NCBI RefSeq assembly: GCF_041228105.1
Contig: NZ_CP166097.1
Span: forward strand, 4,774,001-4,838,000
Length of the DNA: 64,000 bases
Direction: 5' to 3'
From: Pectobacterium aroidearum
GTDB lineage: Bacteria; Pseudomonadota; Gammaproteobacteria; Enterobacterales; Enterobacteriaceae
Shown: positions 46,171-59,362 of the stretch, in pieces
Layout: each line of letters starts with the position of its first letter
How positions within the stretch are numbered: the stretch's first letter is position 1
Notes under the pieces: model-generated
What the model saw: the letters and a program-made list of their open reading frames with translations, nothing else
Database searches by the model: none
What the model was told of the DNA's origin: nothing
Translations under genes and position numbers: made by a program

Positions 46171-46461
46171 ATGCAGAAGCGAACCGTCCAACGCGGCCGA
46201 CCGACCGGCTCCACCACCTTCGACGCCGAGCTGGCCCAGGCCTTCGGCGCGGTGGTGCGCGCACTGCGGGTCGAGCGAGGCGTGGCGCAGGAAACCTTGG
46301 CACATCAAGCCGGTATCGAGCGTTCTCACATGGGCAAGATTGAGCGCGGTGAACACATGCCCACGCTGGCGATTATTTTCAAGATCGCGCGTGCGCTGGG
46401 GCTCAGCGTCGCCCACTTGATGGGGGCCGTTGAAGAAGTCCTGGGCGAAGTGCCTAATTGA
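46171..46461 (+). CDS. XRE-family helix-turn-helix regulator
   Basis: The 96-residue product carries one Cro/C1-type helix-turn-helix at about residues 26-80 (VAQETLAHQAGIERSHMGKI, then ERGEHMPTLAIIFKIARALG). Such a regulator occurs here in most elements of this family and probably controls core genes; it could also control the HNH-type gene that begins 52 bases downstream. I chose ATG at 46171 by the family length; no strong ribosome-binding site is visible. Confidence 0.82.
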   Translation: MQKRTVQRGRPTGSTTFDAELAQAFGAVVRALRVERGVAQETLAHQAGIERSHMGKIERGEHMPTLAIIFKIARALGLSVAHLMGAVEEVLGEVPN

Positions 46462-46513
46462 CTCTGCATCGCATAGCTTCGCTTGGCGTGGTGCAACTTT
46501 GGAAAGGAACTCA

Positions 46514-48025
46514 ATGGCGAAGACATGCATCGTGTGCGGACAGGCCGCAGGCTCTGGGGAGCACGTTTTTCCGGCGTCTCTTGGAGGCCGGCGGGTCAAC
46601 TCCGGCATCTATTGCCCCAAGCACGACAACAGCTATTCGGGTCTCGTCAATGAGATTGCCGAGCAGCTCGACTTCCTCAATGCATACTTGGGCGTTCGGC
46701 CGGATCACTCCAAGCACCCCAAAACTGCCTATGGCGAGCACACGCTGACGGGAGAGACCGTTTCGATCTCTGCCAAGGAGATCAAATTCACGAAGCCCCG
46801 CGTCATCTCCCGCACCGCAGTTGGCGAAGGTGAAGAGTTGCATCTGGCATTTCCCAACCAGCAGTCCGTCAAACAGTTCGCAAAAAAGATGGAGGACGAT
46901 GGACACGAGTGGACACCCTTGTCGAAGCCCTCCGCTCGGCCGTATATCACCGGCTCCATTCACCATAAGCGCAAATTTGGCGGTGCCTGTGGTCTGGGCG
47001 CCATCGCGTACATGACGCAGACATTCTTCGCGCAGGAATTCCCAGAGCTCGCGCGATCAGGGACGCTTTCCAACTTCATCAACTACACGCAAGCCATCGC
47101 CAAGGTCGCAGCGCTGGGCGGCTGCGAACAGCAGCCGGAAGAGCGCGAGGAATTGATCGAGGCACGCGCGGCGGTGACGGTTGCGCTGGAGCCCTTTGGA
47201 GGCACGGCACCGATCTGGTGGGATTTCAGCCCGCCCGCCGGAGCGCGCGCCAACAAGTTTGAATTTGGGCATCGAGTGACGGTTGGTATTGATGGCTTTG
47301 ACGGCCAAATCTACGGCCGTGTCGCGCTGTTCTCCACTTTAACCTTTGCCGTACACCTGGGCACGGCACCGCAGGGTTCCGCCACGCGAGAAGTGACCGT
47401 GGACATTGATCCTCTCGCGGAGCATCCGCCACACGATATCGACAAACATCAGGTGCTCTCAGCGCTAGGCCGCGTTCAAGTGCCAGAACACTCTACCGAA
47501 GGGCTTGCGAATGCGCTCGCCGACGGCACGCAACAGCGTGCATTCGCAAACCTGCTGGAACGCTTGGAAGAACATCAACTCCTCAAACTGGCTCGCACCA
47601 TGAGTATGGCGCTCGCGCCATGTTCCACCTTGTCGCCATTTGAAGCGCGAACACTGATCGAAAAGGAACTTGACCAACAACCACAGCAAATTTGGCGCTT
47701 GGTCACTTTTGTCGTTGAAGGCTTACGGGCGAAAATGGTCAAAGGCGGCATGGGAAGCATTACCCCAGTGCTAGATAACCTGATTGCATATGACGCTCAA
47801 TCAGCAAGCGGTCTATCGCAGCAGGCCGAGGCCACGTTAGCCCTGGCCAAATCCGCATTAGTTGCACAGATGGAGCAAGACTGCGCAGCGGGCGTACTCC
47901 ACGAGGAACGCATTGCGGAACTCATAGGCAGAGGCCCTGGCCTTTATGCCGTGGGGCAGTTGGTGCTGGCCCCTGTCTTGCAGGTGTTTAGTGAATCCGC
48001 TCACCCCAATGAAGTGAGCAGGTAA
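46514..48025 (+). CDS. Large protein with N-terminal HNH-like zinc motif
   Basis: The 503-residue product starts with a zinc/HNH_5-like motif: C5-x2-C8, then GEHVFPASLGGRR with His17, then C34 and H37 in YCPKHDNSY. This pattern is seen in HNH nucleases, including several from defence loci. The following 450 residues have no pattern I recognise; they include a possible helical C-terminus. AAGGAA precedes the ATG at 46514, and the frame before it to 46430 overlaps the XRE gene. Base composition is lower in GC than neighbouring core genes, so it is probably cargo. Nuclease function is inferred from the motif alone. Confidence 0.7.
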   Translation: MAKTCIVCGQAAGSGEHVFPASLGGRRVNSGIYCPKHDNSYSGLVNEIAEQLDFLNAYLGVRPDHSKHPKTAYGEHTLTGETVSISAKEIKFTKPRVISRTAVGEGEELHLAFPNQQSVKQFAKKMEDDGHEWTPLSKPSARPYITGSIHHKRKFGGACGLGAIAYMTQTFFAQEFPELARSGTLSNFINYTQAIAKVAALGGCEQQPEEREELIEARAAVTVALEPFGGTAPIWWDFSPPAGARANKFEFGHRVTVGIDGFDGQIYGRVALFSTLTFAVHLGTAPQGSATREVTVDIDPLAEHPPHDIDKHQVLSALGRVQVPEHSTEGLANALADGTQQRAFANLLERLEEHQLLKLARTMSMALAPCSTLSPFEARTLIEKELDQQPQQIWRLVTFVVEGLRAKMVKGGMGSITPVLDNLIAYDAQSASGLSQQAEATLALAKSALVAQMEQDCAAGVLHEERIAELIGRGPGLYAVGQLVLAPVLQVFSESAHPNEVSR

Positions 48026-51587: not shown

Positions 51588-52415
51588 TCAGGCTTTCAAC
51601 TGGCGCAGGCCATCGGCCAGCAGCCACAGGGCGCGATTGAGGCGAATATCCGAATCAATGCCCTGCACCGGGCGGGTCTGCTGGCGGCGTCCGTTGGCGC
51701 TGCGTCCAGACAAACCGCCTTTGGTCAGGTTCTCTTGGGTTCGGTTGAACACGCTCCACAAGTCCGGGCGGCGGTCGTCGAACCGGCGCGGCATCAGGAT
51801 TTGCGATTCGGTGATGGGTGCGGGCTTGTCCGGGTCGTCGTACTTAAGCGACAGCGCGGCGCGGGCGAACACCTCGGCTTCGCCTTCGTCCAGCGTGATG
51901 GCCTGCATGGATTCTCGGGATTCCAGCGCACGGTCAAAACCGTGTAGCACCTGATAGGCACCTTCGATCACTTGTCCGGCCACGTTGCCCTTATGCGGCA
52001 CGCGCACATCGGCCACGGTATCGCCGCACACCAGCCCATTGCTGCACACGAAACGGAACATCCCGGCCAGCATCTGGTAGCTGCTGGTGCCATCGTGCGA
52101 GTTCAGCAGGATGATTTCGTTGGCCTCGCCTCGGGCGTTGATCTGGCTGGCGTGGCGTAGCCGGATCATGTGCTTGGTGTAGTCGCGGCGGTCTTGGTGG
52201 CGGGTGCGGGTCTGCGTCACCATGAAAGGCTGAAACCCTTCCTTGCGCAGTTCGGTCAGCACCGTGGCGGTGGGGATATAGGCGTAACGCTGGGAACGGC
52301 TTTCGTGGGGCGCTTCCGCAAAGATAGACGGGGCCACGCGGTGAATCTGGTCGTCCGACAGCGGGGTATCGCTGCGCAGAACCGGGGAACGTGATGCGAA
52401 ACGGGATGCAAGCAT
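51588..52415 (-). CDS. DUF932 domain protein
   Basis: The 275-residue product is of the DUF932 type (phage/plasmid-like protein), with segments YIPTATVLTELRKEGFQPFM, IRLRHASQINARGEANEIIL, and FRFVCSNGLVCGD. Its function is unknown. AGGAG precedes the ATG at 52415; the frame continues to 52457 without support. It lies upstream of parB in the same direction with an 81-base gap, and a structured leader precedes it. Confidence 0.88.
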   Translation of the reverse strand: MLASRFASRSPVLRSDTPLSDDQIHRVAPSIFAEAPHESRSQRYAYIPTATVLTELRKEGFQPFMVTQTRTRHQDRRDYTKHMIRLRHASQINARGEANEIILLNSHDGTSSYQMLAGMFRFVCSNGLVCGDTVADVRVPHKGNVAGQVIEGAYQVLHGFDRALESRESMQAITLDEGEAEVFARAALSLKYDDPDKPAPITESQILMPRRFDDRRPDLWSVFNRTQENLTKGGLSGRSANGRRQQTRPVQGIDSDIRLNRALWLLADGLRQLKA

Positions 52416-52986
52416 GGTCTTTCTCCTGACGAAAAGGGTTTGCTGTTCAAACCGCACACCGGATTCCTAGATTCGGAGCCCAGCCTTTCGGCTGTTCGGT
52501 GCGGTTGGCACGAGGAACCAGGTTGGCCCTGTTGCCACCGTCTTTCCTGAGTTCATCGCCCGCGACGGTCAGGAGCCCACGGACGTGGGCCGTCAAGGAG
52601 AAAGGCGGCAGGTAGGTGCGGCCCGCAGGCGTAGCCGAGGACACGGCCTGGCGCGCCTTGACGGCACGCGGCCACGGGCTACAGTCGCGAGCAAGGTGAT
52701 GGAGTCAGGAGAGACGGCTGGACATGGCAACGGCCGCCGTGATGTGCAAGCCGCACGCAAGCGAAGCGCGCAGGCCCGAAGCTGGAAGCCGGGCCGTAGG
52801 CGTCAGGGATGTGGAAGGCTGGCGAATGCCAGTCCCGTCAGGGATGAGCGAAGAGCGAACCTGGAGCAGCGCGGTCCGCAAAGCGGAGACGCAAGGCTCT
52901 TCTTGGCTTATTATCTATTTGTAAGCACCTACAACCGAATAACTTCTTTCCAGTTCAGGAATCTCAAATATAAAAAGGATAGAGCC
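52416..52986. other. Structured leader and hairpin-rich gap before the SIR2 gene
   Basis: This segment divides into two parts. The part next to DUF932 can form a three-way junction: AACCGCAC (52450-52457) with GTGCGGTT (52499-52506), enclosing hairpins at 52459-52476 and 52481-52494. The part at 52690-52900 has a run of short hairpins (52773-52795, 52819-52832, 52875-52887) and the repeat CGTCAGGGATG at 52801-52811 and 52836-52846. Composition changes sharply to AT-rich after about 52905, the likely edge of the SIR2 cassette. A plus-strand frame covers all of this but has no protein pattern before the SIR2 domain. Confidence 0.55.
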
Positions 52987-54000
52987 TTGTCTGATGTCAA
53001 CTACGAAAAGCAAGCTCAGGACTACTACGGCAAGGCTCCCATTATTATTTTGGGTAGTGGAGCCTCGGCTGCCCATGGAATGTCTGGCATGTGGGGGCTT
53101 GCGCAGCATTTGATAAAGAATACTGACGTTTCAGGGCTCTCTGATGCTGAGATGGAGTCCTGGGGGATGTTCTGTCAGACACTGACAGAAGGCGTGGATT
53201 TAGAGGCAGCTCTCCACCGAGTAGCAGTATCTGAAGTGCTGACGTGCAGAATCATAAATTCCACTTGGTTACTTATAAACCATGAAGACTGCGGCATCTT
53301 CAAGAGTGGCTTGCAAAATAGCTCGATGTTCCCGCTGAGCCGTCTGCTTGAACATATGTTCAAAACAAGCCTAAGAAAAATAAATATCATCACTACAAAT
53401 TATGATCGTTTGGCAGAGTACGCATGCGAGCAAAGCAGGCTCCATCACTACACTGGTTTCACACACGGTTTTTTCCGTCAACTGGCCACGCCCGATGAAC
53501 TGACCTGCTCGCGCAGAGTGAATATTTGGAAAGTACATGGCTCTCTAGACTGGTTCCAGTCCCCACTAGAGGACACTGTCGCAATTTCGGGCTCACAAGA
53601 AATACCTGAAAACTACAGCCCCCAGATTGTCACGCCTGGCACGCAAAAGTATCAGAAGACGCATCTTGAGCCATTTCGCTCAATTATAAATAATGCAGAC
53701 GTAGCCATTAACGAGGCCGGATCATATTTGTGCGTCGGATATGGATTCAATGATGAACATATCCAGCCAAAACTTATGGCCAAATGTCAGCGGCATGGCG
53801 CACCAGTCACCATCATTACATACGCGCTTTCGGAGTCAGCTAAGAGACTTATCCTTGGCGGCAAAGCACAAAATTATTTAGCCATAGAGCGAGGAGAAAC
53901 AGACAATCAGTCTATTGTCTACTCCTCCCTTAGCAGTTCTGCAGTTACAGTAGAGAAAAACATCTGGAGCCTTGAGGGCTACTTATCACTCATCATGTAG
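52987..54000 (+). CDS. SIR2-domain protein (putative anti-phage NADase)
   Basis: The 337-residue product has a SIR2_2-type domain. NAD-binding and catalytic features are GSGAS at 23-27, TTNYD at 136-140 and the probable catalytic His184 in KVHGSLDWF; the C-terminal part has YLCVGYGFNDEHIQPKL, typical of prokaryotic SIR2 effectors. In known SIR2-HerA systems such a protein depletes NAD+ on phage infection together with the HerA ATPase. I propose TTG at 52987 as start because AAGGAT lies eight bases upstream and no ATG is close to the domain start. The frame stays open to 52585, but that part is GC-rich element sequence without a domain. Confidence 0.82.
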   Translation: MSDVNYEKQAQDYYGKAPIIILGSGASAAHGMSGMWGLAQHLIKNTDVSGLSDAEMESWGMFCQTLTEGVDLEAALHRVAVSEVLTCRIINSTWLLINHEDCGIFKSGLQNSSMFPLSRLLEHMFKTSLRKINIITTNYDRLAEYACEQSRLHHYTGFTHGFFRQLATPDELTCSRRVNIWKVHGSLDWFQSPLEDTVAISGSQEIPENYSPQIVTPGTQKYQKTHLEPFRSIINNADVAINEAGSYLCVGYGFNDEHIQPKLMAKCQRHGAPVTIITYALSESAKRLILGGKAQNYLAIERGETDNQSIVYSSLSSSAVTVEKNIWSLEGYLSLIM

Positions 54001-54009
54001 AGAGGACAT

Positions 54010-55737
54010 ATGCCAATATTCAACTTTAGGGATGAAGAAGCGCTCGGGAAGGTTGCCTCGGTTGACACCACGAATGTCATCGTGGACGTCGAGAATGTGT
54101 CTCATCTGAAGAGGCTTCAGGTTAATCACCTCGCTGTACTCCAGAGTAGCAAGCCAGGACAGCACCTGATTGGTCTTATTACGCAAGTGACAAGAAAGCG
54201 CGGCATTGAGAATCTTTCTGATGACGGAATCGTAGATCAGAATTCAGAGTTGAATCTGTGCCGCATTGCATTAATTGGAACCATGCTGGATCGCGATGGT
54301 TCCAAGGAGAATGTTTTCCGTCGAACACTCGAAAGTGTTCCTGAAATAGATGCAAACTGCTTCGCTCTCGAAGGCGAGAACCTCACTGGATTTATGCGCA
54401 CGCTCTCCAGTGTTTCAGCCGACGGCAATGCATTGACGCTCGGCAAATACACTCTGGATGACAATGCAGTAGCCTACCTTAATGGAAATAAATTCTTCCA
54501 GCGCCATGCCTTTATTGGAGGGAGCACAGGGTCTGGGAAGTCTTGGACAACGGCCAAAATTATTGAGCAGATGTCAGGGCTTTCTACAGCGAACGCCATT
54601 GTCTTCGACCTCCACGGAGAATATGCGCCATTGACGGGGCCTGGCATTCAGCACTTCAAGGTTGCTGGGCCTGCAGATGTTGAAGCCCAACGCACTATTT
54701 CTGATGGTGTGCTTTACCTGCCTTATTGGCTACTTTCTTATGAGGCGCTAGTTTCCATGTTTGTGGATCGCAGCGACCAAAATGCCCCGAACCAAGCCAT
54801 GATTATGGCTCGCGAGATTAATCAGGCTAAGAGGAAGTACCTTGAAGACAATGGACAACAGGACTTGCTTAAGCATTTTACTGTAGATAGCCCTGTGCCA
54901 TTTGATCTTAACTTCCTGATGTCGCGACTAAATGAAATAAACATCGAAATGGTTCCTGGTTCGCGCGGCGACAAGCAAGGCGACTTCTTCGGAAAGCTCG
55001 CACGCATGATTTCTCGCCTTGAGAACAAAATTTCCGATCGACGCCTCGGATTTATGTTCAATGGCGGCGGAGATATTCTTGATTTCACATGGCTTGAGAA
55101 ATTTGCCAGCGCTGCTCTTGGGAGCACTGCGGAGAACGGGAAAGCAGGAATCAAGATCATCAACTTCTCCGAGGTTCCCTCGGACGTCTTGCCCCTAATC
55201 GTATCCCTCGTTGCACGAGTTACGTTCTCAGTCCAACAGTGGACGCCATCAGAGCTTCGCCACCCTATTGCGCTTCTTTGTGATGAAGCGCACCTATATA
55301 TGCCGCAGCGCAATATGGCAGATTCTGCCGACGATATTTCACTGGATATATTCGAGCGCATCGCCAAAGAGGGGCGAAAATATGGCGTTAGCTTGGTTGT
55401 AATCAGCCAACGTCCATCCGAAGTAAACAAAACACTGCTTAGCCAGTGCAGTAACTTTGTATCTATGCGTCTAACCAATGCTGAAGATCAAGGAGTTATT
55501 AAACGTCTACTTCCTGATAGCCTCGGCGGCTTCAGCGATATCCTTCCTACGCTCGACACTGGCGAGGCTTTGGTTGTTGGTGATGCCAGTTTATTGCCAA
55601 GCCGCATCAGAATCGACGAGCCACAAAATAAGCCGAATAGCGGGACTGTTAATTTTTGGGATGAATGGCAGATCCCAGTCGAAGAGAATCGACTAATGAT
55701 CGCTGTTGACAACTGGCGAAAGCAAAATATCCAATAA
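54010..55737 (+). CDS. herA: HerA-type ATPase/translocase of the defence cassette
   Basis: The 575-residue product is a HerA/FtsK-like ATPase with an N-terminal HAS-barrel region (residues about 8-60), the Walker A motif GGSTGSGKSW at 170-179 followed by IVFDLHGEYAPL, and Walker B ALLCDEAHLYMP near 420-430. It begins nine bases after the SIR2 stop with GAGAGGA upstream, so both are one operon. HerA-SIR2 pairs are known to form large complexes that defend against phages; this gene is the expected partner. Confidence 0.88.
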   Translation: MPIFNFRDEEALGKVASVDTTNVIVDVENVSHLKRLQVNHLAVLQSSKPGQHLIGLITQVTRKRGIENLSDDGIVDQNSELNLCRIALIGTMLDRDGSKENVFRRTLESVPEIDANCFALEGENLTGFMRTLSSVSADGNALTLGKYTLDDNAVAYLNGNKFFQRHAFIGGSTGSGKSWTTAKIIEQMSGLSTANAIVFDLHGEYAPLTGPGIQHFKVAGPADVEAQRTISDGVLYLPYWLLSYEALVSMFVDRSDQNAPNQAMIMAREINQAKRKYLEDNGQQDLLKHFTVDSPVPFDLNFLMSRLNEINIEMVPGSRGDKQGDFFGKLARMISRLENKISDRRLGFMFNGGGDILDFTWLEKFASAALGSTAENGKAGIKIINFSEVPSDVLPLIVSLVARVTFSVQQWTPSELRHPIALLCDEAHLYMPQRNMADSADDISLDIFERIAKEGRKYGVSLVVISQRPSEVNKTLLSQCSNFVSMRLTNAEDQGVIKRLLPDSLGGFSDILPTLDTGEALVVGDASLLPSRIRIDEPQNKPNSGTVNFWDEWQIPVEENRLMIAVDNWRKQNIQ

Positions 55738-55885
55738 TGAACCCTGCATTAAAGCGGGTGCTATTTTAATTAGGTTATTGCTTCCCACTATTCGGAAGAA
55801 AAATCGAGGCAATAACTTTTTAAATTTACATTTCCAATGCCTGGTTGGTTTTTTGCACATGCAGGTAGTTTTCTGGAGTAGACGG

Positions 55886-56752
55886 ATGAGGGATGTATTC
55901 AAGGATCTCAACGATGAAGATTGGGAGAATTTTGCTCAAGATGTTCTATTCCATCTTGGCTATACAATAGCTCTCGGGCCATCTGTGGGGCGCGATGATG
56001 GCGTGGATCTTCTTGTCGAGAAAGGTGGACAGAGATTTGTTGTAAGTTGCAAACACCATCAGAAGGCTATTGGTGTTTCGCAGGAAAAAGACATTCGAGA
56101 TCGCATGGAGCTTAATTCATGCTCGGGATTTATAGCATTCTACTCGTCATCAGTAACTTCAGGCCTGAAAAAAAAGTTTGGCAAGCTTCGCGAGCTTGAT
56201 TTTAAAGTGGTCGAGTACTACAAAACAAACATCTTAGACATAATCCCTACAATGATGGGATTTGTTCTGGAAAAGTACTTCAAGCAAGTGCACGACCTAT
56301 ATCACCATGTGAACACAAACATGGTATACAAGCCACTACCTTGTGTAATGAGGTGTGGATGTAATGATATTTTATCAAAAGAGAATCTCCCTCGCTCAAT
56401 GGTTACCCTTGTAAAAAAGGGTAATAAGCTATGTTTCGAATACGGCTGCAAAAAATGTCTCAGGGATTATCCTGAACACAACCTGGACTGCTTCGACCCC
56501 GAAATAATAGGAGGATTCGATCTCATCGAAATATACTGGATGGAGATATCGCAGATTCGTTTTTTTGAGGAGTACTTCAAGTGGCGAGACTTAATTGATT
56601 TATGCCTCGAGAATCTCGAGGTTGTCCCTGATGACGATTTCTACAAGAACTTATCCATATTTAACATGGCGCTAATGCAAGTTATGGTTCCGCAAGGATG
56701 GGGGGTATGGCTGCCTGAAGAGTATGAAATCACCACGATTCGTTTGATGTGA
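55886..56752 (+). CDS. Mrr-like restriction endonuclease-fold protein
   Basis: The 288-residue product has an N-terminal PDDEXK domain of the Mrr type: WENFAQDVLFHLGYTIALGP near residue 13, then RDDGVDLLVEKGGQRFVVSCKHH, with Asp41 and Lys56 as probable catalytic residues. The usual Gln/Glu two places before the lysine is Ser54. The C-terminal part contains cysteine groups that may bind zinc (MRCGCNDI and YGCKKCL). GGAG eight bases upstream favours ATG at 55886. It follows herA after 148 bases in the same direction and has the same AT-rich composition, so it belongs to the same acquired block. Confidence 0.75.
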   Translation: MRDVFKDLNDEDWENFAQDVLFHLGYTIALGPSVGRDDGVDLLVEKGGQRFVVSCKHHQKAIGVSQEKDIRDRMELNSCSGFIAFYSSSVTSGLKKKFGKLRELDFKVVEYYKTNILDIIPTMMGFVLEKYFKQVHDLYHHVNTNMVYKPLPCVMRCGCNDILSKENLPRSMVTLVKKGNKLCFEYGCKKCLRDYPEHNLDCFDPEIIGGFDLIEIYWMEISQIRFFEEYFKWRDLIDLCLENLEVVPDDDFYKNLSIFNMALMQVMVPQGWGVWLPEEYEITTIRLM

Positions 56753-56893
56753 ATTTTGCAATTTATTTCTGAGCGATCAGATTAACTCTAAGGACTCTCT
56801 CGGTTAGGGCTTAAGAATTGATACGTCATATCTTCATGAGGGTATGCTGTTTAAAAAACTTCGACAGTGCGACATACAACTTTGCTTTTTTCT

Positions 56894-57955
56894 TCACGAA
56901 GTTTTAGTTGGCGTTTTGATGTGCAATTGTGCCCGTTGAGTTGCCTGCTTTAACTTCTCACTTAGCACTGCGCGCGGCGGCAAGCTTGTCAGGTACTCGG
57001 CGACGTGGATGCCCGACTTGTCTAGTTCCAGCAACTCAATCTGTTCGCGCTTCTTGCCGGTGCAAAGGATGATCCCCAGCGGCGAGGCTTCCGCCAGCTC
57101 CCGCTCGTTCTTGTCCAGCCAGCGCAAGTAAAGCTCCATCTGCCCTTTGTAGGCCGCCTTGAACTCGCCGATCTTCAACTCCACCGCCACCAGCCGCCGC
57201 AACTTGCGGTTGTAGAACAGTAGGTCAAGGTGGAAATCCTCATCGTCGATCTGGATGCGCTTCTGTCGGGCGACGAAGGAGAAGCCCGCACCCAGCTCCA
57301 GCAGGAAGGATTCCATTTCACGGATGATGGCCGCCTCTAGGTCACTTTCCTGCCAGCTATCTCGCATTCCCAGAAAGTCGAGGATGTACGGGTCGCGCAT
57401 CACGAGCGCCGGTGTCATGCGTTGCGCGTCGCGCAAGGTCGCCAGCTCCCGCTCGATGGTTTCCTTCGGCTTTTGCGACAACGCCGTGCGCTCGTACAGC
57501 ATCGAGTCAATGCGCTCGCGCAGAGTTCGCACGCTCCAGCGTTCAGCACCTGCAATCTGCGCGTAGTAGTCCCGCTGGAGCGGTTCCTTGAGTGCCAGCA
57601 GCAGGACAAAATGCGACCAGCTCAATTGTCGCGACAGTGTCGCGACAATTTGTTCTTCTGGGAACGTGGCGGCGAATTTGACCATCCGACGCAGATTCTT
57701 CTCCCCAAAGCCGCGCCCATAGTCGCGGGCAAGCTGCTCGGCCAGAGTCGGCAAGATTTCCTCGCCGTACCCGGCCCGCTGCCCGGAAAGCACCTCCGTA
57801 TGGATGCGCTGGCCAATCTGCCAGAATAGCAGGGTCAGTTCGGCATTGATCGTTGAGGCGACGCGCTGCTTCGATGTCTCGATCAGTGCCCGAATGTCCC
57901 CCAGCAGCGCCGTCGGTTCTGCTGGTGACGTGATGGATACCTTTCGCCTGGTCAT
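56894..57955 (-). CDS. DUF1016 (YhcG-type) PDDEXK nuclease
   Basis: The 353-residue product has the DUF1016 N-terminal domain (LTLLFWQIGQRIHTEVLSGQ, then GYGEEILPTLAEQLARDYG) and a C-terminal PDDEXK nuclease domain, with the acidic residue in DFHLDLLFYN near 243 and the VAVELKIGEF motif near 257-266. The family is found with restriction and other defence genes, and its targets are mostly unknown. The ATG at 57955 overlaps the integrase stop by ATGA, so it should be translated from the integrase transcript. An in-frame extension to 58210 only reads integrase sequence in another frame. Confidence 0.88.
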   Translation of the reverse strand: MTRRKVSITSPAEPTALLGDIRALIETSKQRVASTINAELTLLFWQIGQRIHTEVLSGQRAGYGEEILPTLAEQLARDYGRGFGEKNLRRMVKFAATFPEEQIVATLSRQLSWSHFVLLLALKEPLQRDYYAQIAGAERWSVRTLRERIDSMLYERTALSQKPKETIERELATLRDAQRMTPALVMRDPYILDFLGMRDSWQESDLEAAIIREMESFLLELGAGFSFVARQKRIQIDDEDFHLDLLFYNRKLRRLVAVELKIGEFKAAYKGQMELYLRWLDKNERELAEASPLGIILCTGKKREQIELLELDKSGIHVAEYLTSLPPRAVLSEKLKQATQRAQLHIKTPTKTS

Positions 57956-59154
57956 GCTGTCACCTCCGCAGGTGATTGCTTGACACAGGTTAGCGCTTTG
58001 CGCCGGTTCGCCACCAACTCGGCGGCCTCCCGCACGGGCTTGTCTTCGGTGTGGACGTAGCGCATGAACATCGCCACGGTCTTGTGCGCCGTCAGCGCCA
58101 TACCGACCTTCACTGGGATGCCCGAATTGGCAATGTCCGTCGCCGAACGGTGGCGGATGCCGTGCGTACCCACATGCGTTACACCAGCGGCTTTCAGAGT
58201 GCGAGTCCAACCGCTGTAATACTCGCCATCGCTCAGGTGCCGATCTGGATGCCGTGGAGAGGGCAGCACATGGGGCGTCATAGCATTGCGGGCGGCTGTT
58301 GAAAGAAGCCGATAGGCTTCTTCGCTCATGGGCTTGGACATACCGCCTGTCTTGCTGTCAGGCCACACCACGCGCCGGTTTTCCAGATCAATCCAATCCC
58401 ATTGAAGCTCAATGATTTCGGAGCGACGAGCGGCAAACTCGAATTGCAGGCGGATGGCCAGCGGGATCACTACATGCTCCAGGCCTTCCGCCTCCAATTG
58501 GTCAAGGTAGCGAAACAACTTGCCCATTTCCTCGTCGCTGATGAGGTGAGTCGCCTTGCCGTTCGGGTACATGGGCACATGGCGGCATGGGTTAGTGCCG
58601 TCAGGGCGATAGCCCCATACCTCAGCCAAGTTGAACATCTTGCGCATCACGCTGAACGTGCGGTTCGCATCGGCGGGTTTGTGCGCCATCTTCTTCATCA
58701 TCGAAGCCACGTCAGGCCGCTTCAGATCCTGCACCTTCATGCGACCAAGCATCGGGATGATGTTGCGGTCAATGACGCTCTGGTAGCCTTCCTGCGTGCT
58801 AGGCTTGTTACGCTGGCTGGAGTAGTCTTCCATGAACTTGATGCACAGCTCCTTGACCGTGGGTGCCTGACGCGCTGCAGCCTTCTCTGCAGCAGGGTCG
58901 CCACCTCGGCGCACTTGCGCCAGCCACTCCTGCGCCAGCGACCGAGCCTGTTCGACGGTCAGTTCTCCATAGAGCCCCAAGGCAGGTTTGCGCCGCTCTC
59001 CGGCATTCGTGCGGTACTGGAGCATGAACACCTTGCGGCCTGCCGGGGTGATCTTGCACAGGAAGCCGGGAACCAGGGTATCGCGCAGTTCGACTGGCTG
59101 CGCTTGGGCTTGTGCCGCATCGACTGCGGACTTGGTGAGTTTGATTTTCGCCAT
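57952..59154 (-). CDS. int: Tyrosine site-specific integrase
   Basis: The 400-residue product is a phage-type tyrosine recombinase with an N-terminal arm-binding domain (MAKIKLTKSAVDAAQAQAQP onward), a core-binding domain from about residue 97, and the catalytic domain. Catalytic residues are Arg243 (FAARRSEI), His331 and Arg334 (HGIRH), His357 (TAHK) and the nucleophile Tyr366 (MFMRYVHTE). It lies about 175 bases inside the right end and is transcribed inward, as in Tn4371. All catalytic residues are present, so it should be active. Confidence 0.95.
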   Translation of the reverse strand: MAKIKLTKSAVDAAQAQAQPVELRDTLVPGFLCKITPAGRKVFMLQYRTNAGERRKPALGLYGELTVEQARSLAQEWLAQVRRGGDPAAEKAAARQAPTVKELCIKFMEDYSSQRNKPSTQEGYQSVIDRNIIPMLGRMKVQDLKRPDVASMMKKMAHKPADANRTFSVMRKMFNLAEVWGYRPDGTNPCRHVPMYPNGKATHLISDEEMGKLFRYLDQLEAEGLEHVVIPLAIRLQFEFAARRSEIIELQWDWIDLENRRVVWPDSKTGGMSKPMSEEAYRLLSTAARNAMTPHVLPSPRHPDRHLSDGEYYSGWTRTLKAAGVTHVGTHGIRHRSATDIANSGIPVKVGMALTAHKTVAMFMRYVHTEDKPVREAAELVANRRKALTCVKQSPAEVTA

Positions 59155-59328: not shown

Positions 59329-59337
59329 ATAAAAAAT
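59329..59337. repeat. Proposed att direct repeat, integrase-side end
   Basis: ATAAAAAAT is the second copy of the terminal repeat at 15371-15379. It directly abuts a 9-bp perfect hairpin on the chromosomal side. Confidence 0.6.
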
Positions 59338-59362
59338 CGGACACCGAATCATGCGGTGTCCG
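59329..59362 (-). terminator. Minus-strand terminator at the element junction
   Basis: CGGACACCG (59338-59346) pairs perfectly with CGGTGTCCG (59354-59362) with a seven-base loop. On the minus strand the stem is followed by ATTTTTTAT, which is exactly the proposed att repeat. The element therefore appears to have integrated in the T run of an intergenic terminator upstream of degS. Confidence 0.7.

Follow-up and report, generated by a model that had tools for sequence, protein, structure and literature searches.

The SIR2-HerA (Nezha) system of Vibrio cholerae is described as depleting NAD+, with both the SIR2 active site and HerA required, and the SIR2 and HerA proteins of studied relatives are described as forming one large 12:6 complex (PMC11559045). 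A HerA ring with a nuclease partner is found in DUF4297-HerA, whose nuclease-dead mutant is named D40A/Q53A/K55A (PMC11291478). Here we analyzed a window of 64,000 nucleotides from Pectobacterium aroidearum (contig NZ_CP166097.1, positions 4,774,001 to 4,838,000; coordinates below are those of the window), in which an integrative element carries three adjacent genes on the + strand, coding for a SIR2-domain protein, a HerA ATPase, and a protein with an Mrr-type PDDEXK nuclease domain. The trio probably represents two independent defense modules carried as cargo in one slot of the element. The Mrr gene is most likely a separate one-gene Mrr-type nuclease, an ordinary co-cargo of the SIR2-HerA pair.

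The SIR2 gene (52987..54000, + strand, 337 amino acids) and the HerA gene (54010..55737, + strand, 575 amino acids) are separated by 9 bases. The SIR2-like domain (PF13289, 3.8e-11) contains a GSGAS motif at residues 23–27 and retains the catalytic Asn and His (N138 in TTNYD, 136–140, and H184 in KVHGS, 182–186); the adjoining ATPase (PF01935, 3.7e-26) has both a Walker A (GGSTGSGKS, 170–178) and a Walker B (LLCDEAH, 422–428) motif. Matches over nearly the full length of both proteins to the PADLOC models SIR2 (E = 8.3e-141, residues 4–337) and HerA (E = 6.4e-242, residues 1–573) bear out the SIR2-HerA reading made in an earlier note on this DNA. Judged by sequence, the pair belongs to the SIR2-HerA (Nezha) systems, which it resembles in gene order, spacing, the N/H active-site motifs of SIR2, the Walker motifs of HerA, and full-length PADLOC models; it differs in being adjoined by a nuclease gene that was unseen beside 18 other such loci. 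Its scores lie far below the curated cut-offs of the NCBIfam equivalogs NF042942 (SIR2_antiphage, 28.4 of 500 bits) and NF042944 (HerA_antiphage_2, 290.7 of 850 bits), and we therefore assign it to another subfamily of the same kind. Relatives with solved structures, as found by sequence, include chains of PDB entries that contain both SIR2 and HerA, e.g., 8j4u, and one HerA relative was found in viral contigs. Because the V. cholerae system depletes NAD+, the present pair may do so as well: by analogy with studied relatives, the HerA ATPase ring would assemble with SIR2, and upon phage infection SIR2 would hydrolyze NAD+ and thereby stop phage growth.

Together the three genes occupy a single exchangeable slot (about 52923..56917) with nothing else in it, as seen from the break in backbone homology on both sides. 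The backbone match to Pseudomonas putida pTTS12 (94.8% identity) ends on the left at 52922; that to an Enterobacter plasmid (85.6% identity) stops at 52895 and restarts at 56918. The slot adjoins a DUF932 gene on the left (51588..52457, − strand) and a YhcG/DUF1016 gene with a PDDEXK nuclease domain on the right (56894..57950, − strand; the listed open reading frame extends to 58210, over the end of the integrase), which is followed by the tyrosine integrase of the element (57952..59154, − strand). In pTTS12, the slot is occupied by the Lamassu genes LmuA (7.4e-156) and LmuB (3e-247) together with Gabija-like GajA (1.6e-51) and GajB (1.6e-24), and thus the presence of two systems at once in this slot has already been seen. 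In the Enterobacter plasmid it contains a candidate defense gene, PDC-S06 (3.8e-174). By its gene content, then, the interval that DUF932 and the YhcG-integrase block enclose is recognizable as a defense cargo slot. The element ends near 59329–59340: in 24 further genomes of the genus, homology to the flanking chromosome begins at about 59329, and a copy of the element in a second genome, G586, matches to 59340. This copy is 97.9% identical over 19 kb, and its SIR2, HerA, and Mrr proteins are 100% identical to the present ones.

The Mrr gene (55886..56752, + strand, 288 amino acids) follows HerA after an AT-rich gap of 148 bases (55738..55885). The three open reading frames of the earlier note were found in the sequence with their common direction and spacing, and so were the SIR2 motifs, the cysteine clusters, and the Mrr domain that it listed. 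The composition was not, as had been stated there, the same: GC content is 41.9% in the Mrr gene and 38.5% in the preceding gap vs 46.8% in SIR2 and 48.3% in HerA, which is weak evidence that the Mrr gene came from a different source than the pair. The trio is real, but its previously proposed left limit, 52905, lies upstream of the SIR2 gene and still inside the pTTS12 backbone match. SIR2 most likely starts at the TTG codon at 52987, since 337 amino acids is the length of most of 120 listed SIR2 homologues, and since DNA homology to three plasmid pairs begins at 52988–53006. A TTG start of the Mrr gene at 55706, overlapping HerA, was rejected; the starts of aligned homologues coincide with 55886 or lie close to it. 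A weak terminator-like hairpin in the gap (55743–55758) is of a kind that occurs at about chance frequency, and a scan for promoter-like (7 vs 5.4 expected) and terminator-like (7 vs 4.0 expected) sequences was uninformative.

Eighteen other SIR2-HerA loci were searched by tblastn (E 1e-3), and in the flanks fetched with them neither the Mrr gene nor any of 24 aligned members of its family was detected; three of these loci have short downstream flanks (614 bases in L049, 395 in L056, and 49 in L058). Two of the 18, L058 and L059, have the HerA match in two pieces and may therefore be broken; in L058 (genome G326), the pieces lie about 1.3 kb apart, as if interrupted by an insertion. The 18 exclude L034 (HerA without a SIR2 match), the weaker HerA matches L012 and L014–L027, and L009–L011 and L013, which are shorter copies of counted loci. 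Sixteen genomes were searched whole with the family alignment, and a full-length Mrr homologue was present in none of the 14 other SIR2-HerA genomes (G586 and G584 are not among these); G388 alone among them gave a match, weak and partial, on a different contig. The 14 include the genomes of the three loci with short downstream flanks. DNA homology to the three closest plasmid pairs that we compared (Pseudomonas aeruginosa, Catenovulum, and Serratia) spans the pair and ends at the HerA stop (55735–55739), and other genes lie downstream of HerA in all three. Of 398 genomes surveyed in the phylum, HerA is matched at 1e-150 in 10 and the Mrr family at 1e-10 in 3; the present genome alone has both, the other two Mrr-family genomes having no HerA match in one case and a weak one (5.6e-38) in the other. 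On plasmids, the 5 records with the Mrr family are absent both from the 40 listed of 645 HerA records and from the 60 listed of 81 records with pair-like DNA. The adjacency would accordingly reflect recent or local assembly rather than a conserved partnership, and the two modules would act independently.

The second module is predicted to be a DNA nuclease with an N-terminal PDDEXK domain. Mrr_cat (PF04471) is matched above the gathering cut-off (8.1e-07), and in the predicted structure the alpha-beta core of the nuclease fold is intact. The canonical D...(E/Q)xK triad is not present: the active-site motif is S54-C55-K56-H57, and in 51/51 aligned sequences Ser stands where Glu or Gln is usual. 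D41 is kept in 50/51, and K56 and an acid at position 67 (E67 here) in 51/51. Twelve residues separate the D41 and S54 positions in 48 of the 51, which is the D-x12-[Q]-x-K spacing of DUF4297-HerA; there, the nuclease is the HerA partner and has Gln in place of Ser, while here the partner of HerA is SIR2 and the Mrr gene is third and separate. The lysine-to-acid spacing is K-x13-acid in 32/51 and K-x10-acid in 19/51, the present protein belonging to the latter group. The acid at 67 may take the place of the canonical Glu/Gln, so that the protein would have the Mrr fold but a variant site. Permuted PD...K...D/E sites are described for the CCGG-family enzymes Cfr10I and NgoMIV (PMC6344858), an analogy of active-site order alone. 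Because Ser is invariant beside a conserved D, K, and downstream acid, the protein more probably cuts DNA, through a permuted active site, than only binds it. When the family alignment was searched against PDB sequences, no significant match was obtained; the best were zinc-finger chains, with E of 0.028 or more.

The C-terminal half contains cysteines C153, C157, and C159 and C188 and C191, of four-cysteine character. For the fourth cysteine the two family alignments disagree, Cys occupying column 159 in 23/24 sequences of one and in 13/51 of the larger one, and a second Cys follows C153 within 7 residues in 51/51. This half is probably zinc binding and may recognize DNA. Folded alone it gave a low-confidence model (mean predicted confidence, pLDDT, 65.6, from 4 sequences) with no PDB fold match at E<0.001. 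The whole protein had no match in PHROGs at E 0.01 and did not match the PD-Lambda-3 model; PADLOC lists only PDC-S73 (0.0013) and ZorD (0.003).

What the nuclease would be directed against can be read in a second way, which is compatible with the two-module reading and refines its second module: the Mrr gene may mainly aid the element against other mobile DNA, such as foreign-modified plasmid or phage DNA, by type IV restriction, rather than serve the defense of the cell. We regard this as possible, though doubtful. In fold, the predicted model matches AspBHI and MspJI, which are modification-dependent enzymes, and homologues of the Mrr protein occur on plasmids and in the Z region of a P2-like prophage. 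Fold similarity, however, says nothing about specificity; identity to these enzymes is 14%, and the C-terminal half, lacking a fold match in its low-confidence model, provides no identified domain for reading modified bases.

The family comprises 50 proteins besides the present one, with an invariant S-C-K-H motif. No SIR2 or HerA match was found at the five loci of relatives with readable context, from which L005–L008, L029, L030, and L066 are excluded as matching only part of the Mrr protein. One relative (L002, 46% identity) lies beside an integrase and upstream of a PD-Lambda-3_B gene (E 1.1e-134), at a distance of 109 bases; in this arrangement (L002:7977-9690) the nuclease family is again paired with a defense gene. 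The others are near an ABC-transporter ATPase gene (L003), adjoin a RelA/SpoT-domain gene (L004), or are flanked by TrlF-like and hypothetical/caspase genes (L040). The fifth (L039) is ORF1 of the P2-EC67 Z region, which is 40% identical to residues 7–103 of the Mrr protein and more distant in its C-terminal part; annotated as a putative lysogenic conversion protein, it is the only annotated gene in a 1.5 kb record, with inverted repeats on either side. Viral contigs yielded no Mrr relative, by family alignment or single protein, and E. coli genomes no match to the cassette or to the DNA of the L002 homologue.

The earlier note had suggested a three-part system, with nucleic-acid cleavage or sensing in addition to NAD+ loss. 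In such a system, the Mrr-type protein would cut or sense DNA as a functional subunit of SIR2-HerA or as an extra effector, with SIR2 removing NAD+. The common strand, the 148-base spacing, a slot without other genes, the intact nuclease fold, and the identical arrangement in G586 and probably in a third lineage are all consistent with such a system. Several further observations weigh against regarding the gene as ordinary co-cargo. An Mrr homologue (P0004, 91%) shares assembly figures with a HerA protein (P0056) that is 98% like the present one, and hence a further linked case is likely; the same crude test gave 18 shared figures between 120 SIR2 and 120 HerA rows (the best 120 of 1838 and of 6341, respectively), 1 between Mrr (50 rows) and HerA, and 0 between Mrr and SIR2. 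The count of relatives with readable context leaves out the homologues of 58-79% identity (P0005–P0017). Finally, the V. cholerae island with Nezha is reported to carry an endonuclease gene as well (PMC11559045), endonucleases or predicted restriction endonucleases being mentioned for classical V. cholerae genomic islands including that of Nezha (PMC11559045, PMC12409358), and the Mrr family includes a V. cholerae protein (P0044) that is possibly this endonuclease. Nonetheless, a three-part system is unlikely given the lack of the Mrr gene at the other SIR2-HerA loci and of full-length homologues in the other genomes, the end of homology to the plasmid pairs at the HerA stop, the occurrence of Mrr relatives without SIR2 or HerA, and the lower GC content of the gene. 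Conservation of the third gene beside SIR2-HerA across lineages, as envisaged before, was not seen: the trio is present in this element and in its near-identical G586 copy, with perhaps one more lineage, so that the linkage is nearly, if probably not entirely, confined to the present element. We found no description of a SIR2-HerA-Mrr system in the titles and abstract openings of the papers listed, which is not proof of its absence from print. A narrower version, in which the Mrr nuclease was recruited as a third SIR2-HerA effector in the present element lineage alone and infection would lead to both NAD+ loss and DNA cutting, we consider improbable.

It is very unlikely that the Mrr-like protein is a dead enzyme that may bind rather than cut, acting as a regulator or sensor, as suggested earlier from the Ser before the catalytic lysine: that Ser is real, and the model also resembles, with a lower Z, the Rpb5 jaw, which is not a nuclease, but Ser is found here throughout the family and is no defect, and D41, K56, and the acid at 67, whose retention is not expected of a dead enzyme, are kept in a predicted fold that is intact and in an order that active enzymes use.

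Returning to the element that carries the two modules, the pTTS12 and Enterobacter plasmid regions match its backbone, which may be that of a Tn4371-like integrative element, with the gene order RepA-ParA-ParB-DUF932-slot-radC-integrase. In both related regions radC lies between the cargo and YhcG, and here the 141 bases available (56753-56893) leave no room for it. Further to the left, a 531-amino-acid open reading frame (46430-48025, + strand) has a weak HNH_5 match (E 0.0054, under the Pfam cut-off) and a GC content of about 56-61%, lower than most of the surrounding backbone; it is possibly a second cargo gene. The pTTS12 element has a DUF4917 gene (L043:7216-8256) that matches PDC-S21 (5.7e-126) and hints at a second cargo spot.

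SIR2-HerA is an already known type of anti-phage system. The analysis brings to attention a small nuclease family with an invariant S-C-K-H motif, which appears uncharacterized: no description of it was found, and the best PADLOC match of the present protein is just E 0.0013. Because the slot itself gathers unrelated modules, the adjacency of genes within a defense slot argues only weakly for their forming a joint system.
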